DNA of 64,000 nt, taken from the NCBI RefSeq assembly GCF_026191475.2, contig NZ_JAOSLC020000003.1, forward strand, positions 1,395,001 through 1,459,000, in the 5' to 3' direction. A program made the position numbers and the translations under genes. Every line of letters starts with the position of its first letter. Position 1 is the stretch's first letter. This document shows positions 26,569 to 34,900 of the stretch, piece by piece. Below the pieces are notes generated by a model. The model ran no database searches. It saw only the letters and a list, made by a program, of their open reading frames with translations, and was not told where the DNA came from. Origin of the DNA: Polaribacter ponticola. GTDB lineage: Bacteria > Bacteroidota > Bacteroidia > Flavobacteriales > Flavobacteriaceae.

Positions 26569-27429
26569 TTAGTAATTCCACATATCCATTTCTCTATTTC
26601 TAATATCTTCTTTTATTTTATTTGCTTCTAAAAGCTGAAATAAAGAGTTCCCTCTTACATAATCTTCAATAGCTCTATTTCCATATATATTTTCCTCTCT
26701 AACAATTACCGAACTAAACCTACGTGCATTCAATAAATGATCATAAGAAATTGGTTGTGATGAGTTTTTAGGATTAAAAACCTTAGCATTATGTAAAACA
26801 TCTCTTGCGTTTGGGAAGAAAATCCAAAACAACTCGTATAAATTTTCATCTTCAACATTTTCAACACCAATAGTCTGTACGTCTTTTCCCATAGGAGCTA
26901 ATGCTAATAATCGGTATTTCATTTCACCTTGACGCTTATCAAAATACCACATTCCTTTTAACATGTATCCTTCTACATCTTGTGTTTGAATTCTAAATGT
27001 ATCTGTATATCCGTTTTCTTCTCTAACATTAACTAATCTAGAATCAATTTCATCTTGAGTAATTTTAGAGGTGAAAAAAGAATCTGTATATGCTTCTTTA
27101 ATTTTGCCTTGTTTAATTCCTTTAATTAAAGAATCGAACAAAGATCTTCTGTTAGAAGAAATACTTGTAGTATCGATAGGAAAATAATATGGTAAATTTA
27201 TTTTTTGATTCAAGTCAATAAATTCCCAAACAACTTTAGACCACATGATATCTCTATCATCTACATATCCATAAGGAATTGGGGCATCATTATCTGAAGT
27301 TAATTGTTGTTCGTTTTTTTTACCAATATCACTTACAGACTTTGCGTTTAGTAAATTTGATTGCGCATTTACTATACCAGAAGTCAGAAAGACTAAAAAT
27401 ATTATGAAACAATTTCTAACCATATTCAT
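26569..27429 (-). CDS. gldN: gliding motility / type IX secretion protein GldN
   Basis: GldN (PorN) is a periplasmic part of the type IX secretion machine, associated with the GldK ring and GldM. The 286-residue protein has a signal peptide (MVRNCFIIFLVFLTSGIVNA; start either Met1 or Met3) and GldN-typical segments DDRDIMWSKVVWEFIDLNQK, NLPYYFPID, LLALAPMGKDVQ and ELFWIFFPNARDVLHNAKVF. It is the last gene of the minus-strand gldK-L-M-N unit, 11 bases behind gldM, and is followed by a strong terminator. There is no gldO paralogue in the window. Confidence 0.95.
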   Translation of the reverse strand: MNMVRNCFIIFLVFLTSGIVNAQSNLLNAKSVSDIGKKNEQQLTSDNDAPIPYGYVDDRDIMWSKVVWEFIDLNQKINLPYYFPIDTTSISSNRRSLFDSLIKGIKQGKIKEAYTDSFFTSKITQDEIDSRLVNVREENGYTDTFRIQTQDVEGYMLKGMWYFDKRQGEMKYRLLALAPMGKDVQTIGVENVEDENLYELFWIFFPNARDVLHNAKVFNPKNSSQPISYDHLLNARRFSSVIVREENIYGNRAIEDYVRGNSLFQLLEANKIKEDIRNREMDMWNY

Positions 27430-27440
27430 TTTTTTAATTT

Positions 27441-28973
27441 CTAATTTGTTAATTCGATATTAACAGGCAATACCTTTTTAAGCTTATAAGAATTTCCAAT
27501 AATAGAAGCTTTAATATCATAAATATTAATAATATCTCCTCTTTTAGCTTTAGATAATTTTTGCTTTGCAGCTGCATTTAACCTAGAACCATTAACAATA
27601 ATTGTTAATTGACCTGGTACTTTTATTTTAAAGCTATTAACTTGTAATTTTAAATCGAACATAAAATCTGGTAAACCTGCGCTAATTGGTGCATTAGACA
27701 AACCTGATTTTGGCATTCTTACAGTACCAAATTGATTACGTACAGACCCCATGGCAGCTGGTATATCTTTAACTCTAAAAGTCTTTTTAGAATTTACAGT
27801 TTTACCACTACTTAGTTTTGCACTTACATTAATTACAGCAGTATTTCCTGCTCCTGGTCTCATACTGTATTTTCCTCTACTACCTGTTAACCTTCCTCCA
27901 GTTGCAGATACATTTAAGTTATTATCTCCAACACCAGGTAAAGAAACTGAAATTGGATTATCTAAACCTCTATAAACAACATTCATAGCATCTGCAGAAA
28001 CTACTGCATTGCTAGGTTCTGGTATTACTGAATAAGAACTTTCAAAATCAACATTTACAGGTTTTCCATCTTGAGTAAACGTTATTTGTCCTTTAATATC
28101 ATGATTACCAACATTACCTGCTGGCATATCTATAATAACTTGTCCGTCTTTTATATTCGTATATGGTCTTCTATTAAGTGTAACCTTATCTGGAACCATA
28201 GTTGCATCATAACGACCAAGTACAATTTTACCTGTAACTTTTTCACCTGCAAAATATGCATTCTTATCTAACGCTACAATACCTTTATAATTATCTAATG
28301 ATAATGCCTCTTCTAATTTACCTCCTAATAAACCAGATACTATATCTGCTTCAGTATTTTTAATATCAGCCTGCATTTGTGTAAGATTCGTTAAAGAAGC
28401 TACTAGAGGAAATCCTTCGTATCTATAATTTAACCATGGTACTACATTACCATCTTTATTTGTTGCGTCTGTTGTATTAAATCTTTTATTAATTAGAGAC
28501 TCAAAACTATTACCAGAACCTAGTTCTGCGTTTACATTTGTTCTATAATTATTAATTTTATCTAGGAACTCTTGTCCTTCTGGAGTAAAACCATCACCTT
28601 TAAAAAAGTAAGTATCCAAAAAGTCTGTTTTATCCATAGATTCATAATCATTTTTTTCTTCTATATCAGAAGTCATTTTAGTCTTTAATTCGGCTAAATA
28701 TGAATAAAAATCAGATGAATGTTTCTTAATTTTTATAGCTTGTTCATTTAGTTTTCCAAACTTTGCAGATTGCTCTGAAGCTTTTGTTGCTAAATTAGCG
28801 TATGATAATTTATTTTTTTCTGTTGTTGATGCATTATTAGACACCAATTTCTCGTTCATAAAACCAAAAGCAGATAAAACTTCTTTACTCATGTTCATTG
28901 CTAACATTGCAATAAATACAAGATACATTAAGTTTATCATCTTCTGTCTTGCGGACATTTTTCCTCCTGCCAT
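27441..28973 (-). CDS. gldM: gliding motility / type IX secretion protein GldM
   Basis: GldM is the inner-membrane-anchored periplasmic shaft of the type IX secretion motor, working with GldL. The 510-residue protein starts MAGGKMSARQKMINLMYLVF with one transmembrane segment near residues 13-30. A helical N-domain and Ig-like periplasmic domains follow (KVTGKIVLGRYDATMVPDKV, DLKLQVNSFKIKVPGQ). Length agrees with F. johnsoniae GldM (about 510). It lies 38 bases behind gldL and 11 bases before gldN. Confidence 0.96.
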   Translation of the reverse strand: MAGGKMSARQKMINLMYLVFIAMLAMNMSKEVLSAFGFMNEKLVSNNASTTEKNKLSYANLATKASEQSAKFGKLNEQAIKIKKHSSDFYSYLAELKTKMTSDIEEKNDYESMDKTDFLDTYFFKGDGFTPEGQEFLDKINNYRTNVNAELGSGNSFESLINKRFNTTDATNKDGNVVPWLNYRYEGFPLVASLTNLTQMQADIKNTEADIVSGLLGGKLEEALSLDNYKGIVALDKNAYFAGEKVTGKIVLGRYDATMVPDKVTLNRRPYTNIKDGQVIIDMPAGNVGNHDIKGQITFTQDGKPVNVDFESSYSVIPEPSNAVVSADAMNVVYRGLDNPISVSLPGVGDNNLNVSATGGRLTGSRGKYSMRPGAGNTAVINVSAKLSSGKTVNSKKTFRVKDIPAAMGSVRNQFGTVRMPKSGLSNAPISAGLPDFMFDLKLQVNSFKIKVPGQLTIIVNGSRLNAAAKQKLSKAKRGDIINIYDIKASIIGNSYKLKKVLPVNIELTN

Positions 28974-29011: not shown

Positions 29012-29647
29012 TTATTTATTTGACATTGCAGAAAGCATGTTCCCATAAACTCCATTAAGAGAAGATAAATTCTTAGCTAAAGAATCCATTTGTTCTTTTA
29101 ATTTTTCTGCATTTTCTGCAACTGCAGAATTCATTTCTGTTTGTTTTTTAGAATTCTCTACTTGTACTTTATACAAGTTATTTAAAGTTTCCATTTGAGC
29201 AGCAGCCATAGATACTTGCTCATTATATTTATTTGTTGATGAAACAGATTCTGATGCTGCAGATAATCCTTCTGCTGCACCTTGAAAGTTTTTCATACTA
29301 CTTCCTAAACTACTCATTAATGCTGAATCTATTTTTGCTTCTTGTAATAGATTGTCTAATTTTTGGGATAACATACCATCTGCTCCAACTTTTTCTTCAG
29401 AAGAGAAACCTTCTGTTCCTAACTCCGGATAAACTTTAGTCCAATCAAAATCATCTTCTGGAGTATCAAATGCAGAAATAGCAAATACTAATGCTTCAGT
29501 TACTAAACCAATAGTTAACATTAAACCTCCTGTTAAAAAACCATAAGATATATGTTGAATTTTAAATAACGCTCCAATGATAACAACTGCTGCTCCCATT
29601 CCGTATACGAAATTCATTGTTTTTTTATAAGATCTTGATTGTGCCAT
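29012..29647 (-). CDS. gldL: gliding motility / type IX secretion protein GldL
   Basis: GldL forms the proton-driven inner-membrane motor with GldM. The 211-residue protein begins MAQSRSYKKTMNFVYGMGAA and has two transmembrane helices (about residues 12-30 and 36-58: VVIIGALFKIQH, GGLMLTIGLVTEALVFAISA). The second contains the conserved Glu in TEALVF that has been linked to proton use. The rest is a cytoplasmic helical region rich in Ser, Ala and Met. It lies between gldK and gldM in the usual order. Confidence 0.96.
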   Translation of the reverse strand: MAQSRSYKKTMNFVYGMGAAVVIIGALFKIQHISYGFLTGGLMLTIGLVTEALVFAISAFDTPEDDFDWTKVYPELGTEGFSSEEKVGADGMLSQKLDNLLQEAKIDSALMSSLGSSMKNFQGAAEGLSAASESVSSTNKYNEQVSMAAAQMETLNNLYKVQVENSKKQTEMNSAVAENAEKLKEQMDSLAKNLSSLNGVYGNMLSAMSNK

Positions 29648-29685: not shown

Positions 29686-31043
29686 TTACTTGTTTGAGGT
29701 ACCTATATAATTTTGTACTGTTCTAAAACCGATATAACTTCTTGCTGTATCTGCATATTCATAATCTCTAGAACTTACTTCTAAATAATATGCTACATCT
29801 TTCCAAGAACCTCCTCTAATTATTTTTCTTCTATTTTTTCTATCTTCTACATTTGGGTTCATCGTAGAAGCCATGTAATAAGAAGATAAATTATAAGCTG
29901 TATTTGTCCATTCTGCTACATTTCCTGCCATATTATACAAACCGTAGTCATTAGCATTAAATGATTTTGCCTCCATTGTATATAAAGCTCCATCAACAGA
30001 ATAGTTACCTCTAACAGGTTTAAAGTTTGCTAAGAAACAACCTCTATCGCTAGTTGTACTTCCTGTTCCCCAAGGGTATGTTGCAAATTCCAATCCGCCT
30101 CTTGCAGCATATTCCCATTCTGCTTCTGTTGGTAATCTAAAATCTGGCACTTGAGTTGCATTTTTTCTTGTTCTTAAATAATCGTTTTTCTTTTTGTTCT
30201 CCAGTTACAAAAAGCATTTGCTTGTTCCCAAGTAACACCAACAACAGGATAATCTCCATAAGATTGATGATAAAAATAATCTTGGTGCATTGGATCGTTA
30301 TAAGAATAATTAAAATCTTTTACCCAAACTGTTGTATCAGGGTATATATTTAAAACCTCTGTTTGCACAAAATCTTTTCGGTTACCTCCTTTTCTTGCTG
30401 CATTATCTCTATCAAACCAAGAGTATTTGTAGTTTAAAAATTTAGTATTAAAAGTTCTTATTCCATCAACAGCTTCTTCTCTATCAATAAATAAAGAATC
30501 CATTACTTCTACATAATCTACATCTGGAAACTCTTCTTTTTTCCAAATAATTTCCTCATCCCAATTTAAAGGTTGAATTGTATCAAAACTATAATAGTTT
30601 TCGTACATATATTTTTGGTAAGGTGTAGCATTAGCTACTGTATCTTTAAATTTATAATTTTGAATTCCTCCAGACGGAAGCACTCCATTTGCATTAGGAG
30701 TAGCACCTAAACCTGCAAATTCTGCTTGATATGCTAATTTAGTTCTAACCACAGAATCTCTAACCCAGTTTACAAATGCTTTATATTCGTTATTTGTAAT
30801 CTCAGTTTCATCCATATAATATGGTCTAACAGTTACGGTTTTTGTAGGCGTATTCATTGTTCCTACTACATCTTCATCTTGTTTACCCATAGTAAATGAT
30901 CCTCCAGGAACAAGCACCATTTCATGAGGCTTTTCTGAAAACCATTTCTTCTTCACTTTTACACCTACTAATTCTCCCCTATCGTTAGAACCACAGCTGT
31001 AAAAAACAGTTATTAAAAGTGCAAATATTGCTGCTTTCTTCAT
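29686..31043 (-). CDS. gldK: gliding motility lipoprotein GldK (apparent frameshift at 30185-30195)
   Basis: GldK (PorK) is an outer-membrane lipoprotein ring component of type IX secretion with an FGE/sulfatase-modifying-factor fold. The 5' frame has a lipobox (FYSCGSN), EMVLVPGGSFTMGKQDEDV and VTWEQANAFCNWRTK, then stops. The 3' frame continues DYLRTRKNATQVPDFRLPTE, AEWEYAARGG and GGSWKDVAYYLEVSSRDY to RSYIGFRTVQNY. One extra A in either A5 run (coding strand) restores 452 residues, close to known GldK. The break falls inside a conserved, essential motility/secretion gene whose partners are intact, so a sequencing error is more likely than a pseudogene. Confidence 0.9.
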
Positions 31044-31145: not shown

Positions 31146-32306
31146 TTACATCATTTTTTTCATAGCCTTATACCATCTTTCTGGAATAATTTGCTTTGTA
31201 GCCTGAACGTAATCTTGGTATGTACATGGTATTAACGCATGTCTTTTGTATTTATTATCTGATAAAATTTTAATCTCGATCCACCAACGTCCTGTTTTAT
31301 TACTTTTATAAAATGTTAAAGGATCATCTTCTTCAAGTAAAACCGTAAATTTTTGATAATTTTCTTTCCCTGAAAAAGGATAGTCTTTTACTCTAAAATT
31401 AACTCCTTCAATAAAATACCAAATCATTTGCGATATTAAATTGGCTGTTTGATAATTATTATCAAATTTAGAGTTGTATTCATAAATACCAAAAGAAGAT
31501 ACTTTATCACTTATTCCTGCATATCTAGCAATAGCGCAAATCTCTTCGCCATAAAAACCATTTGGTGAAGCATTATTATTTGCTGGAGCTTCACTTTGTC
31601 TAACAGCTCCCATATCTATAGAAACAATATCTGCATTTCTAAAAGCGGGTTCAATATTTTCTAACTCTTTTGCTTTTCCTAATCTATATGCATCAAAAAA
31701 TAAATTATCTAATAATTGTATTTCTTCTTGAGCGTTAAAGTAAGTTTGATAACCAACATTACTATAATTAAACAAATTATTAGGTTGTTGCATTATAATT
31801 TTACTCAAATAAGATTGTGAGGTTAATTCATCTTCTATATCTCCTAAATCAAATCTGCTATCTACAGCAGTAATATTTACAGATTGCTCCAACTTATCAT
31901 AAGCTCTGTAATTTACATATGTAATATCTTGACCTCCACCAATTATAATAGGGATAATATTCTTTTTTAACAAACCTGTTATAATTTCTGAAACTGCGAA
32001 ATAGGTGTCTGCAACGGTATTCCCTTTTTGAACATTTCCTAAATCCGCAATCTCTGTTTCCCATTTTCCTGGAAATAAGTCATACAGTTTTTTACGAATA
32101 ATGTGTAAGTTTTCGCCACAACCAAAATTGTTTTGAGAATTCCTATCTTCTTGAACCCCAAATATTGCAATTTGCACATTATCTAAATCTGGAAAATCAT
32201 CTTCACTAGAATGAATTCTAATTTTATTACCAAAACACATAGGTGATTGCAATAGTAAATGCTCTAAAACAGATTCTTTTACAGGGGATAAAAAGTCTTG
32301 ACTCAT
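31146..32306 (-). CDS. arginase/formimidoylglutamase-fold protein with degraded metal site
   Basis: The 386-residue protein has the ureohydrolase fold (AIFGVQEDRNS, IPIIIGGGQD, SIDMGAVR), but the manganese ligands are largely changed. The family GGxHS/D histidine is Gln126; DAHxD is DSRFD (Asp149, Arg151, Asp153); SxDxDxxDP is SIDMGAVRQ (Asp231, Gly233). Loss of two His and one Asp makes normal binuclear catalysis doubtful, so it may be a pseudoenzyme or scaffold despite the formimidoylglutamase name such proteins receive. It sits between topA (39-base gap) and gldK, on the same strand. The TTG one codon upstream could be used; I prefer the ATG of MSQDF. Confidence 0.85.
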   Translation of the reverse strand: MSQDFLSPVKESVLEHLLLQSPMCFGNKIRIHSSEDDFPDLDNVQIAIFGVQEDRNSQNNFGCGENLHIIRKKLYDLFPGKWETEIADLGNVQKGNTVADTYFAVSEIITGLLKKNIIPIIIGGGQDITYVNYRAYDKLEQSVNITAVDSRFDLGDIEDELTSQSYLSKIIMQQPNNLFNYSNVGYQTYFNAQEEIQLLDNLFFDAYRLGKAKELENIEPAFRNADIVSIDMGAVRQSEAPANNNASPNGFYGEEICAIARYAGISDKVSSFGIYEYNSKFDNNYQTANLISQMIWYFIEGVNFRVKDYPFSGKENYQKFTVLLEEDDPLTFYKSNKTGRWWIEIKILSDNKYKRHALIPCTYQDYVQATKQIIPERWYKAMKKMM

Positions 32307-32345: not shown

Positions 32346-34847
32346 TTATTTCTTTTTTACAGTTTTCTTTCTTGTAGTCGTTTTCTTTTTCGCTGCTTTT
32401 TTCTTTGGCGTTTTTGCCTCAATCATTTTAACAGCTTCAGCTTTAGAAAGCTTTTCTATTTCTGTTGTTTTTGGTAATTCAATTTTTATTTTTCCTTTAA
32501 TCACATTAAATCTACCCCAACGCGCTTTTTCTACACGAATAGCAACATCTTCCCAATTATGGATAACTTTATCTATTTCTTTTTGTTTTTTAACCTCAAT
32601 TAATTCAATAATATTGGCTTCTGTAAGATTATCAAAATCGTATTTTTTATTTACATTAATAAAAATTCCGTTCCATTTTAAGAAAGGTCCAAAACGTCCA
32701 ACTCCTTTTTGCACAGGTAAATCTTCGTAATGATAAATTGGTGCATCTGCTTTTTGTTTTGCAACAATTAATTCTTGTGCTCTTGGCAAATCTACTTCCA
32801 TTGGGTTTTCTCCTTTATCAAGAGAAACAAACATAGTTCCGAAGCGAATATAAGGTCCAAAACGACCGTTAGAAACAATTACCTCTTCACCTTCATAAGT
32901 ACCTAACGTTTTTGGAAGCAAGAATAATTCTAATGCTTCCTCCATAGTTATTGTACCTAAATTTTGATCTTTATTTAAGCTAGCAAATACTTTTTCTTCA
33001 TCTTCCGGCGCTCCAATTTGTGCAATTGGCCCAAATTTACCTAAACGTACTAAAACTGTTTTTCCTGTTTCTGGGTGTTTTCCTAAAATACGCTCTCCAC
33101 TTTCTCTCTCTGCATTTTCTTTAACATCTTCTACAGTTTCATGAAAATTTGTATAAAAACCTTTTATCATTTCTATCCAATCTTCATCTCCTTCAGAAAT
33201 ATCATCAAAAGAACTTTCTACTTTCGCCGTAAAACCAAAATCTAAAATATTAGAAAAATTAGCTACTAAAAAGTCGTTTACAATATTACCAATATCGGTT
33301 GGCACTAATTTATTTTTATTAGAACCAGTTTTCTCCGTTAAAGTTTGGCTTTTTACAGTTCCTGCAGTTAAAATCATTTGCTCGTAACCTCTTTCTAATC
33401 CTTCATCTTCTCCTTTTTCTACATAACCTCTTCTTTGAACAGTAGAAATTGTTGGCGCATACGTAGACGGACGTCCAATACCCAATTCTTCTAATTGCTT
33501 TACTAAAGATGCTTCTGTAAAACGGTAAGGCGGACTTGTAAATCTTTGCGTTGCGTTTATAAACGTATAATCTAATGCTTCTCCAACCTTTAAGTTAGGT
33601 AACATTCCTGCTTGCTCTTCATCTTCATTATCATTTCCTTCTAAATACACTTTAAGAAAACCATCAAACTTTATCATTTCTCCGTTTGCAGTAAAGATTT
33701 TTGCGTTTTCAGAATTTTCAATCTTAAAATTGGTTCTTTCTAATTGCGCATCACTCATTTGAGAAGCTAATGTTCTTTTCCAAATTAAATCATACAATCT
33801 GTTTTGATCATATTCTGAATCTATTGAATGCATTTTCATGTTTGTAGGTCTAATTGCTTCATGCGCTTCTTGAGCTCCTTTTGCTTTCGACTTAAAAACA
33901 CGTTGTTTACTATATTCTTTTCCGTAATAATTTGTAATTTCTTCTTCAGCCGCATCTCTTGCATCTACAGATAAGTTTACACTATCTGTTCTCATATAAG
34001 TAATTAAACCGGCTTCGTATAAACGCTGTGCAACTTGCATTGTTTTGGCAACAGGAAAACCTAATTTTCTTGATGCTTCTTGCTGTAATGTTGATGTTGT
34101 AAATGGTGCTGCTGGAGATTTCTTTGCTGGCTTTTTTGTTAAATCAGCAATAGAAAAATCTGCATTAGCACAAGATTCTAAGAAACTTTCTGCAGCTTTT
34201 TTAGAATCGAAATTCTTTGGTATAGCAGCCTTAAATTTCTTTCCTTCGTTGTTAGAAAATTCTGCAACAACTTTATAATGTGTTTCAGATGTAAAATCCT
34301 GAATACTTCTTTCTCTTTCTACTATTAAACGTACGGCAACAGATTGAACTCTACCCGCAGATAATCCACCTTTAACTTTACGCCATAAAACTGGTGATAA
34401 TTCGTACCCAACAAGCCTATCTAAAACTCTACGCGCTTGTTGTGCGTTTACCATATTGTAATCTATATCTCTAGGATTCTCAACTGCTTTTAAAATTGCT
34501 TTTTTAGTAATTTCATGAAAAACAATACGTTTTGTATTTTCTTCTTTTAAATCTAATTGCTCTTTTAAATGCCACGCAATAGCTTCTCCCTCTCTATCCT
34601 CATCACTTGCTAACCAAACAGTATCTACTTTTTTTGCTAAACTCTTAAGTTTTTTAACTACAGGTTTCTTATCATCAGATATAATATATTTTGGACTAAA
34701 ATCTCCTTCTACATCTATACCCAACTCTTTGGATGGTAAATCTGCTATATGCCCATAACTAGATTCTACTTGAAAGTCTTTTCCAAGAAATTTCTCTATG
34801 GTTTTTGCTTTTGCTGGTGACTCTACTATTACTAAATTCTTTGCCAT
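32346..34847 (-). CDS. topA: DNA topoisomerase I
   Basis: It relaxes negative supercoils as a type IA enzyme. The sequence starts MAKNLVIVESPAKAKTIEKF (Toprim), with Toprim acidic residues in LASDEDREGEAIAWHL, and the DNA-linking Tyr284 in GLITYMRTDS. The C-terminus has repeats such as GRFGPYIRFG and GRFGPFLKWNG in place of Cys4 zinc fingers, and a Lys/Thr-rich tail (TPKKKAAKKKTTTRKKTVKK). At 833 residues it is normal for Bacteroidota. I use the ATG of MAKNLV; the frame extends nine codons upstream without family similarity. Probably cotranscribed with the arginase-fold gene. Confidence 0.96.
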   Translation of the reverse strand: MAKNLVIVESPAKAKTIEKFLGKDFQVESSYGHIADLPSKELGIDVEGDFSPKYIISDDKKPVVKKLKSLAKKVDTVWLASDEDREGEAIAWHLKEQLDLKEENTKRIVFHEITKKAILKAVENPRDIDYNMVNAQQARRVLDRLVGYELSPVLWRKVKGGLSAGRVQSVAVRLIVERERSIQDFTSETHYKVVAEFSNNEGKKFKAAIPKNFDSKKAAESFLESCANADFSIADLTKKPAKKSPAAPFTTSTLQQEASRKLGFPVAKTMQVAQRLYEAGLITYMRTDSVNLSVDARDAAEEEITNYYGKEYSKQRVFKSKAKGAQEAHEAIRPTNMKMHSIDSEYDQNRLYDLIWKRTLASQMSDAQLERTNFKIENSENAKIFTANGEMIKFDGFLKVYLEGNDNEDEEQAGMLPNLKVGEALDYTFINATQRFTSPPYRFTEASLVKQLEELGIGRPSTYAPTISTVQRRGYVEKGEDEGLERGYEQMILTAGTVKSQTLTEKTGSNKNKLVPTDIGNIVNDFLVANFSNILDFGFTAKVESSFDDISEGDEDWIEMIKGFYTNFHETVEDVKENAERESGERILGKHPETGKTVLVRLGKFGPIAQIGAPEDEEKVFASLNKDQNLGTITMEEALELFLLPKTLGTYEGEEVIVSNGRFGPYIRFGTMFVSLDKGENPMEVDLPRAQELIVAKQKADAPIYHYEDLPVQKGVGRFGPFLKWNGIFINVNKKYDFDNLTEANIIELIEVKKQKEIDKVIHNWEDVAIRVEKARWGRFNVIKGKIKIELPKTTEIEKLSKAEAVKMIEAKTPKKKAAKKKTTTRKKTVKKK

Positions 34848-34900
34848 TGTCTTTTCTTTTGTCGTAATCAACACAACATTAACTGTGTGTTTTAGAAATG

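Follow-up and report, generated by a model that had tools for sequence, protein, structure and literature searches.

A widespread arginase-fold protein of the Bacteroidia, probably a pseudoenzyme, encoded between topA and gldK in Polaribacter ponticola

Introduction

The closest described relatives of the protein reported here, in fold as well as in named family, are formimidoylglutamase HutG and the Trypanosoma cruzi formiminoglutamase (PDB 4MXR, 4MYN, 2A0M). The T. cruzi enzyme binds two Mn ions and, to judge from a PDB title ("N114H variant"), would carry Asn at the position of a matching His ligand. Our protein differs from this family in that the binuclear site is lost, an extra C-terminal domain is present, other residues are conserved, and there is no hut operon around its gene.

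Arginase-fold proteins without a binuclear metal site are, as such, already known. The Trypanosoma brucei arginase-like protein, attributed to Hai et al. 2015 (PDB 4RHI-4RHQ), reportedly has no binuclear Mn although it keeps the arginase fold. One of its mutants is titled R151H in the PDB, which implies an Arg at the expected His ligand, as in our protein, but it is a eukaryotic protein whose sequence matches ours weakly (E 0.011 or worse). The arginase domain of a Fusobacterium ornithine decarboxylase/arginase is likewise said to be without a binuclear centre; by its title it is fused to a decarboxylase, and we liken it to our protein by description only. A further case is MetCb/MfmB, the metal-free subunit of metformin hydrolase, an arginase-family pseudoenzyme that works by binding (PMC11271267). 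That subunit pairs with an active paralogue whose gene is adjacent (PMC11271267), whereas in the genome studied here we found a single match to the arginase family and no such partner. What sets the present case apart is its range in the class, the C-terminal domain, the fixed residues, and the lack of an active paralogue in the genome.

We analysed a window of 64,000 nucleotides of Polaribacter ponticola (contig NZ_JAOSLC020000003.1, positions 1,395,001 to 1,459,000), from a genome of 3.58 Mb in five contigs that is 94% complete. In the open-licence literature we found no treatment of such a protein beside gldK, an absence that is weak evidence; in the part available of an open-licence paper that names both gldK and arginase, the latter is a biochemical strip result.

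Results

An arginase-fold protein between topA and the gld genes

The gene under study, hereafter the pseudo-arginase gene, lies on the minus strand together with topA and gldKLMN (Table 1). Its product matched Pfam Arginase PF00491 with 65.7 bits against a curated cut-off of 22. All 22 members of the orthologue alignment A1 matched the same model, and a very divergent member, L206, stayed under the cut-off with 18.1 bits. An AlphaFold2 model calculated from 55 sequences (pLDDT 87.7, pTM 0.83) superposed on the T. cruzi formiminoglutamase with Z 36 and an rmsd of 2.0 over 277 residues at 18% identity, and on arginases and formiminoglutamases generally with Z 27-36. By family match and fold alike, the protein belongs to the arginase/ureohydrolase superfamily, as the original prediction had it. 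We found no second PF00491 protein in the genome at its 94% completeness. As far as can be read from the gene product, in which no signal peptide is apparent by eye, the pseudo-arginase should be cytoplasmic.

Table 1. Features of the locus, in window coordinates.
Feature	Coordinates	Strand	Remarks
Pseudo-arginase gene	31146..32306	-	386 aa, ATG at 32306; ORF and translation, PF00491 E 6.1e-18
Arginase-fold core, residues 1-302	31401..32306	-	PF00491 over residues 45-298
C-terminal domain, residues 303-386 (84 residues)	31149..31400	-	Carries W341-W342, C361, D365-Y366
Gln126, in place of first metal-ligand His	31929..31931	-	Alignment with canonical proteins
Arg151, in place of His of DxHxD	31854..31856	-	Alignment with canonical proteins
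Gly233, in place of second Asp of DxD	31608..31610	-	Alignment with canonical proteins
Span with Arg208, Glu219, Arg223	31638..31685	-	Kept in 229, 233 and 233 of 234 orthologue rows
topA (DNA topoisomerase I)	32346..34874	-	ORF; upstream end of block
gldK	29686..31043	-	Split by frame break: 30174-31043 and 29686-30150
gldL	29012..29647	-	TIGR03513 205.5 bits
gldM	27441..28973	-	ORF; named by place and sequence
gldN	26569..27429	-	ORF; named by place and sequence

The placement given earlier, between topA and gldKLMN on one strand, is correct: topA ends 39 nt upstream of the gene and gldK begins 102 nt downstream of it. The 39-nt gap suggests that the pseudo-arginase may be co-transcribed with topA. 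Among 80 related loci, topA lay upstream in 79 and gldK downstream in 79, both misses falling at contig ends, and the loci of relatives L003-L031 had both genes in 29 of 29. In other families a porP-like gene is inserted between the pseudo-arginase gene and gldK. Of 95 distant loci, 39 were flanked on both sides, by topA upstream and by porP/gldK downstream; another 5 had just topA, 3 just a gld neighbour, and 48 neither; counted by family (n = 62), the order topA–pseudo-arginase–(porP)–gldK occurred in 30, topA only in 4, gld only in 2, and neither in 26, where the share of "neither" is raised because the sample was deliberately enriched in the most divergent families and is not random. The recurrence in 30 of the 62 families shows that the linkage is real and old, and the gene lies in an old block topA–pseudo-arginase–porP–gldKLMN. 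The expected linkage to gldK thus holds as a gene order found in 30 families, but not as a general rule, with 48 of the 95 distant loci lacking both topA and gldK/porP.

Other neighbours were observed as well. Within the 26 families without topA or gldK/porP, an NAD-dependent epimerase-like gene was the divergent neighbour in 10, at 19 of 47 loci (L161-L164, L181, L184, L191, L192, L194, L196-L198, L204, L206, L210-L212, L215 and L217), in clusters drawn by single-linkage BLAST that may merge a large dehydrogenase family. Two of these epimerase-like proteins were scanned and came nearest to HpnA, with 169 and 156 bits, under the cut-off of 368. In family f19, the gene stood tail to tail with murF-like and gldJ-like genes, named by eye, in two of four loci (L170:2121-6819 and L172:5617-9503); in L170 a porP-like gene follows further out.

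The original prediction was silent on the split of gldK in the window. The two halves of gldK share one frame in 177 of the 179 loci that have both, and the two exceptions are the window genome itself, in which no other full-length GldK was found. Since other long genes of this genome also look broken (L261:9414-12853), a sequencing indel is a more likely cause of the break than a real loss.

The binuclear metal site is lost throughout the clade

At the six ligand columns, where canonical proteins have H, D, H, D, D and D, the pseudo-arginase has Q126, D149, R151, D153, D231 and G233. The original prediction had named the substitutions Gln126, Arg151 and Gly233, and the columns read exactly so; in rat-arginase numbering we take the lost ligands to be H101, H126 and D234. 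Asp149, Asp153 and Asp231 are still present. The protein accordingly does not have the full set of an active binuclear ureohydrolase. In an alignment of 130 rows, four of them canonical proteins, the 126 orthologue rows had Q at position 126 in 118, R or K at 151 in 112, and G, S or N at 233 in 121. The three substitutions are therefore conserved and lineage-wide, not a matter of chance.

In a larger set of 234 orthologue rows (some genomes counted twice, the window gene as one row), the number of ligands kept was 0 in 3 rows, 1 in 15, 2 in 11, 3 in 184, and 4 in 21. Orthologues with intact ligands, which the original prediction had listed as evidence that would count against it, did not appear: none of the 234 rows kept 5 or 6. 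By comparison, the control set of 25 canonical members of the arginase family, taken from the same class and phylum, kept six ligands in 20 cases and five in 5. A tree of 111 sequences, calculated without the ligand columns, separated these 25 from 86 orthologues with a support of 1.0.

The loss of the binuclear site leaves room for a single ion. A possible single-metal set (H/Q/N126, D149, D153 and D231) is kept in 200 of the 234 rows, and in view of the T. cruzi enzyme, which binds two Mn with its inferred Asn, the protein may yet bind one metal and carry out a new reaction. Position 151 is tied to the rest of the site: Arg or Lys accompanied D149 and D231 in 168 of 175 rows vs 43 of 59 (p 3e-6, kinship ignored), and in the distant rows alone in 41 of 48 vs 31 of 47 (p 0.03, kinship ignored). 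We infer that Arg/Lys151 would supply a positive charge where the His of the second metal used to be, which may let the Asp cluster fold without that metal.

A different set of residues is held in place of the metal site

Conservation in the 234 orthologue rows centred on other positions. In the core, Q187 was kept in 233 rows, C257 in 225 and W296 in all 234, next to the Arg208, Glu219 and Arg223 of Table 1; in the C-terminal domain, the counts were 233 for F332, 233 for W341, 231 for W342, 233 for C361, 213 for D365 and 231 for Y366. Q187 is not new, as most canonical rows have it too. At loosely aligned columns, the 25 canonical rows had R208 in 0, E219 in 6, R223 in 6, C257 in 4 and W296 in 5, and one of them, L252, had E219, R223 and C257 together, so that the clade is marked by the set and not by each residue. 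The W-W, C and D-Y of the C-terminal domain occurred in none of the 25 canonical rows, nor was the domain itself found in them.

The two sets come apart in the 18 rows that retain no more than a single metal ligand. Here the 12-residue set (Q187 included) was complete in 11; it deviated at one residue in 3 (L169, L194 and L212) and at two or more in 4 (L126, L127, L171 and L172). Judged from these alignments, the old metal site is drifting while the new residue set is mostly held.

These counts also bear on the reading of the protein as an enzyme with new chemistry, either with a mononuclear metal at the Q/D/D/D site or metal-free through R208, E219, R223 and C257. The wide retention of H/Q/N126 with the three Asp residues (200 rows) and of C257 (225 rows) speaks for such an enzyme, but the single-metal set is missing in 29 of the 95 distant rows, and the rows that have shed nearly all ligands mostly have the new set whole. 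We regard an enzyme of this kind as improbable, and favor a protein that acts by binding.

We could assign no named fold to the C-terminal domain, although it may well have a known one. No Pfam family other than Arginase matched more than one of the 22 orthologues. Predicted alone, the domain gave a pLDDT of 73 and a pTM of 0.59; its fold found no close counterpart by Foldseek (best E 0.88) or VIA-align (best Z 4.0, none at 5 or above). Weak spectrin SH3 matches stood at E 0.28-0.78. One of the 22 orthologues showed weak SecA matches (NCBIfam E 2e-4 and 7e-4, Pfam 0.013), perhaps by chance.

The gene is under purifying selection and spread across the class

The pseudo-arginase gene is under strong purifying selection, with a dN/dS of 0.048 and 0.092 against two relatives, as compared to 0.111 and 0.267 for gldL and 0.026 for gldN (one relative). 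An internal stop occurred in one orthologue row, G336, among the matches listed. A decaying pseudogene, which we also considered, is rejected by these dN/dS values and by the open frames of the orthologues. Fold kept, binuclear set lost and selection maintained are what a metal-less arginase-fold pseudoenzyme would display. The original prediction of a pseudoenzyme is thereby strengthened, by clade-wide loss of ligands, strong selection and newly conserved residues, with the proviso that one metal ion is possible.

A match was present in 54 of 59 genomes, our own included, and 50 were counted as orthologues by score; the remaining nine were three incomplete genomes of the genus and six of other families. 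In the class sample, 279 of 296 genomes had a match at E 1e-20 or better, which is an upper bound because canonical proteins reach 7e-48 with the profile (G175). Seven of the 279 scored no better than G175 (G093, G120, G213, G217, G517, G550 and G570), and none of the three of these that were read (L169, L170 and L172) had six ligands. Outside the class, 16 of 89 matches in the phylum sample were read; each proved canonical, and in none was the C-terminal domain present.

The protein is not the formimidoylglutamase of its genome

Transfer of the nearest name would make the pseudo-arginase the HutG of its genome. The best named model is indeed hutG TIGR01227, which all 22 members of A1 matched at E 0.001, and the genome has hutU, against our expectation that it would be without, with no PF00491 protein besides the pseudo-arginase. 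However, the score against TIGR01227 was 89 bits vs an equivalog cut-off of 229.15, hutU lies on another contig, and the genome encodes a formimidoyltransferase (FTCD, 229 bits). The pseudo-arginase gene thus neither keeps company with hut genes nor fills a missing step: FTCD can fill the formimidoylglutamate step, and the pseudo-arginase is not the HutG of this genome.

A comparison of 17 genomes, chosen from 36 of the Polaribacter group (G000-G035), pointed the same way. While hutU was found in 16 of the 17 (15 over the cut-off; G034 without), the last step of histidine use was covered by a HutG-like paralogue only in 7, by FTCD only in 7, by both in one (G020), and by neither in two (G017, with hutU, and G034, without). 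G017, with hutU but neither a second arginase-family match nor FTCD, is the one that fits a HutG role; against it, the pseudo-arginase is present in all 17 genomes, G034 included. With a low score, an alternative enzyme, and this indifference to the pathway, we consider the HutG reading scarcely credible, and the warning of the original prediction that the name formimidoylglutamase misleads was well placed. As a side observation, seven of the eight HutG-like paralogues, identified by score, lay within 2.5 kb of hutU, and the three that were read had all six ligands, the one of G021 with one internal stop. The genus appears to swap a HutG beside hutU for a formimidoyltransferase elsewhere.

Gene order ties the protein to type IX secretion more firmly than function does

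The neighborhood raises the question of whether the pseudo-arginase assists or regulates the type IX secretion system (T9SS) and gliding machine as a working component on the cytoplasmic side of GldLM. Such a role would explain why the gene stays next to porP-gldKLMN, in nearly all related loci as in the 30 families (39 of 95 distant loci) with the block, and the gldJ-like neighbor in two of the four f19 loci would fit it as well. Across the 296 class genomes, the pseudo-arginase occurred with GldL in 275, neither was present in 5, GldL only in 12, and the pseudo-arginase only in 4 (Fisher p 3.7e-5, kinship ignored).

Several observations speak against this reading. The 26 families with neither topA nor gldK/porP adjoining show that the gene can live elsewhere, and the pseudo-arginase is missing in 12 of the 287 GldL-positive genomes. 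Three of the five "neither" genomes belong to one family (f25), and another, G493, has SprA and is hence probably a T9SS genome without pseudo-arginase. Conversely, G401 (99% complete) has the pseudo-arginase without GldL or SprA, where SprA is a weak marker given that G060, of the same genus, gave no SprA match despite having GldL, and G491 (95% complete) likewise has the pseudo-arginase and neither of the two. In G555 and G678, which have the pseudo-arginase and no GldL, the presence of SprA makes an assembly gap the probable cause.

The block was also seen without the gene. Among six order-level genomes without pseudo-arginase, five had GldL (G043, G044, G046, G047 and G056), the exception being G050 (0.3 Mb). 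In G046 the gene that follows topA is porP, ahead of gldKLM, and in G044 topA is followed at once by gldKLM; neither block has a pseudo-arginase gene. The two blocks are natural knock-outs (L265:4263-9999 and L266:2-6694; G044 and G046), where the profile gave no match within the block and a single-sequence search covered the rest of the genome. As topA-(porP)-gldK persists without the pseudo-arginase, the neighborhood alone proves little and may be inertia. In the other eight loci examined, topA was not found beside gldK.

Evolutionary rates gave no sign of coupling either. Given TopA, the partial rate correlation of the pseudo-arginase was 0.013 with GldL (permutation p 0.44) and -0.018 with GldK (41 loci), while the positive control, GldL-GldK, reached 0.77 in the same test (41 loci). 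A core component would be present wherever the core is, which the 12 of 287 genomes and the two blocks without the gene do not bear out. The pseudo-arginase is thus probably not an obligatory part of the T9SS, and the data speak weakly for a T9SS function; a working accessory role is a minority reading, and a doubtful one. Of the proposed tie to gliding and secretion, the link in gene order stood, while the functional link met with several tests against it.

Discussion

We conclude that the pseudo-arginase is likely an ancient pseudoenzyme of its class, which has kept the arginase fold and given up the binuclear metal site; it would work by binding and cannot be an ordinary ureohydrolase. Its most likely form is that of a scaffold or binding protein in the cytoplasm, where the core and the C-terminal domain together would make a putative docking surface for a protein or a small ligand. 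More speculatively, and in our estimate unlikely, the family, with its dedicated WW/C/DY domain, could be a regulator in the cytoplasm that has escaped notice: a cytosolic signal held in the former active-site pocket would be passed on to the T9SS/gliding motor, or more broadly to the assembly of the envelope.

The finding has consequences for annotation. An apparently class-wide protein family is masked by the name of a histidine-degrading enzyme, and through the misnaming metabolic maps acquire a step that is not there. In a Mariniflexile genome paper, histidine degradation is given as not detected "except for formiminoglutamase" (PMC11278836), and we infer that this formiminoglutamase may be an orthologue of the pseudo-arginase.

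For the biology of these bacteria, a conserved gene inside the T9SS core block offers a direct deletion target. For the arginase family, the clade shows, in a broad sample, how a defunct active site drifts while another set of residues is held.
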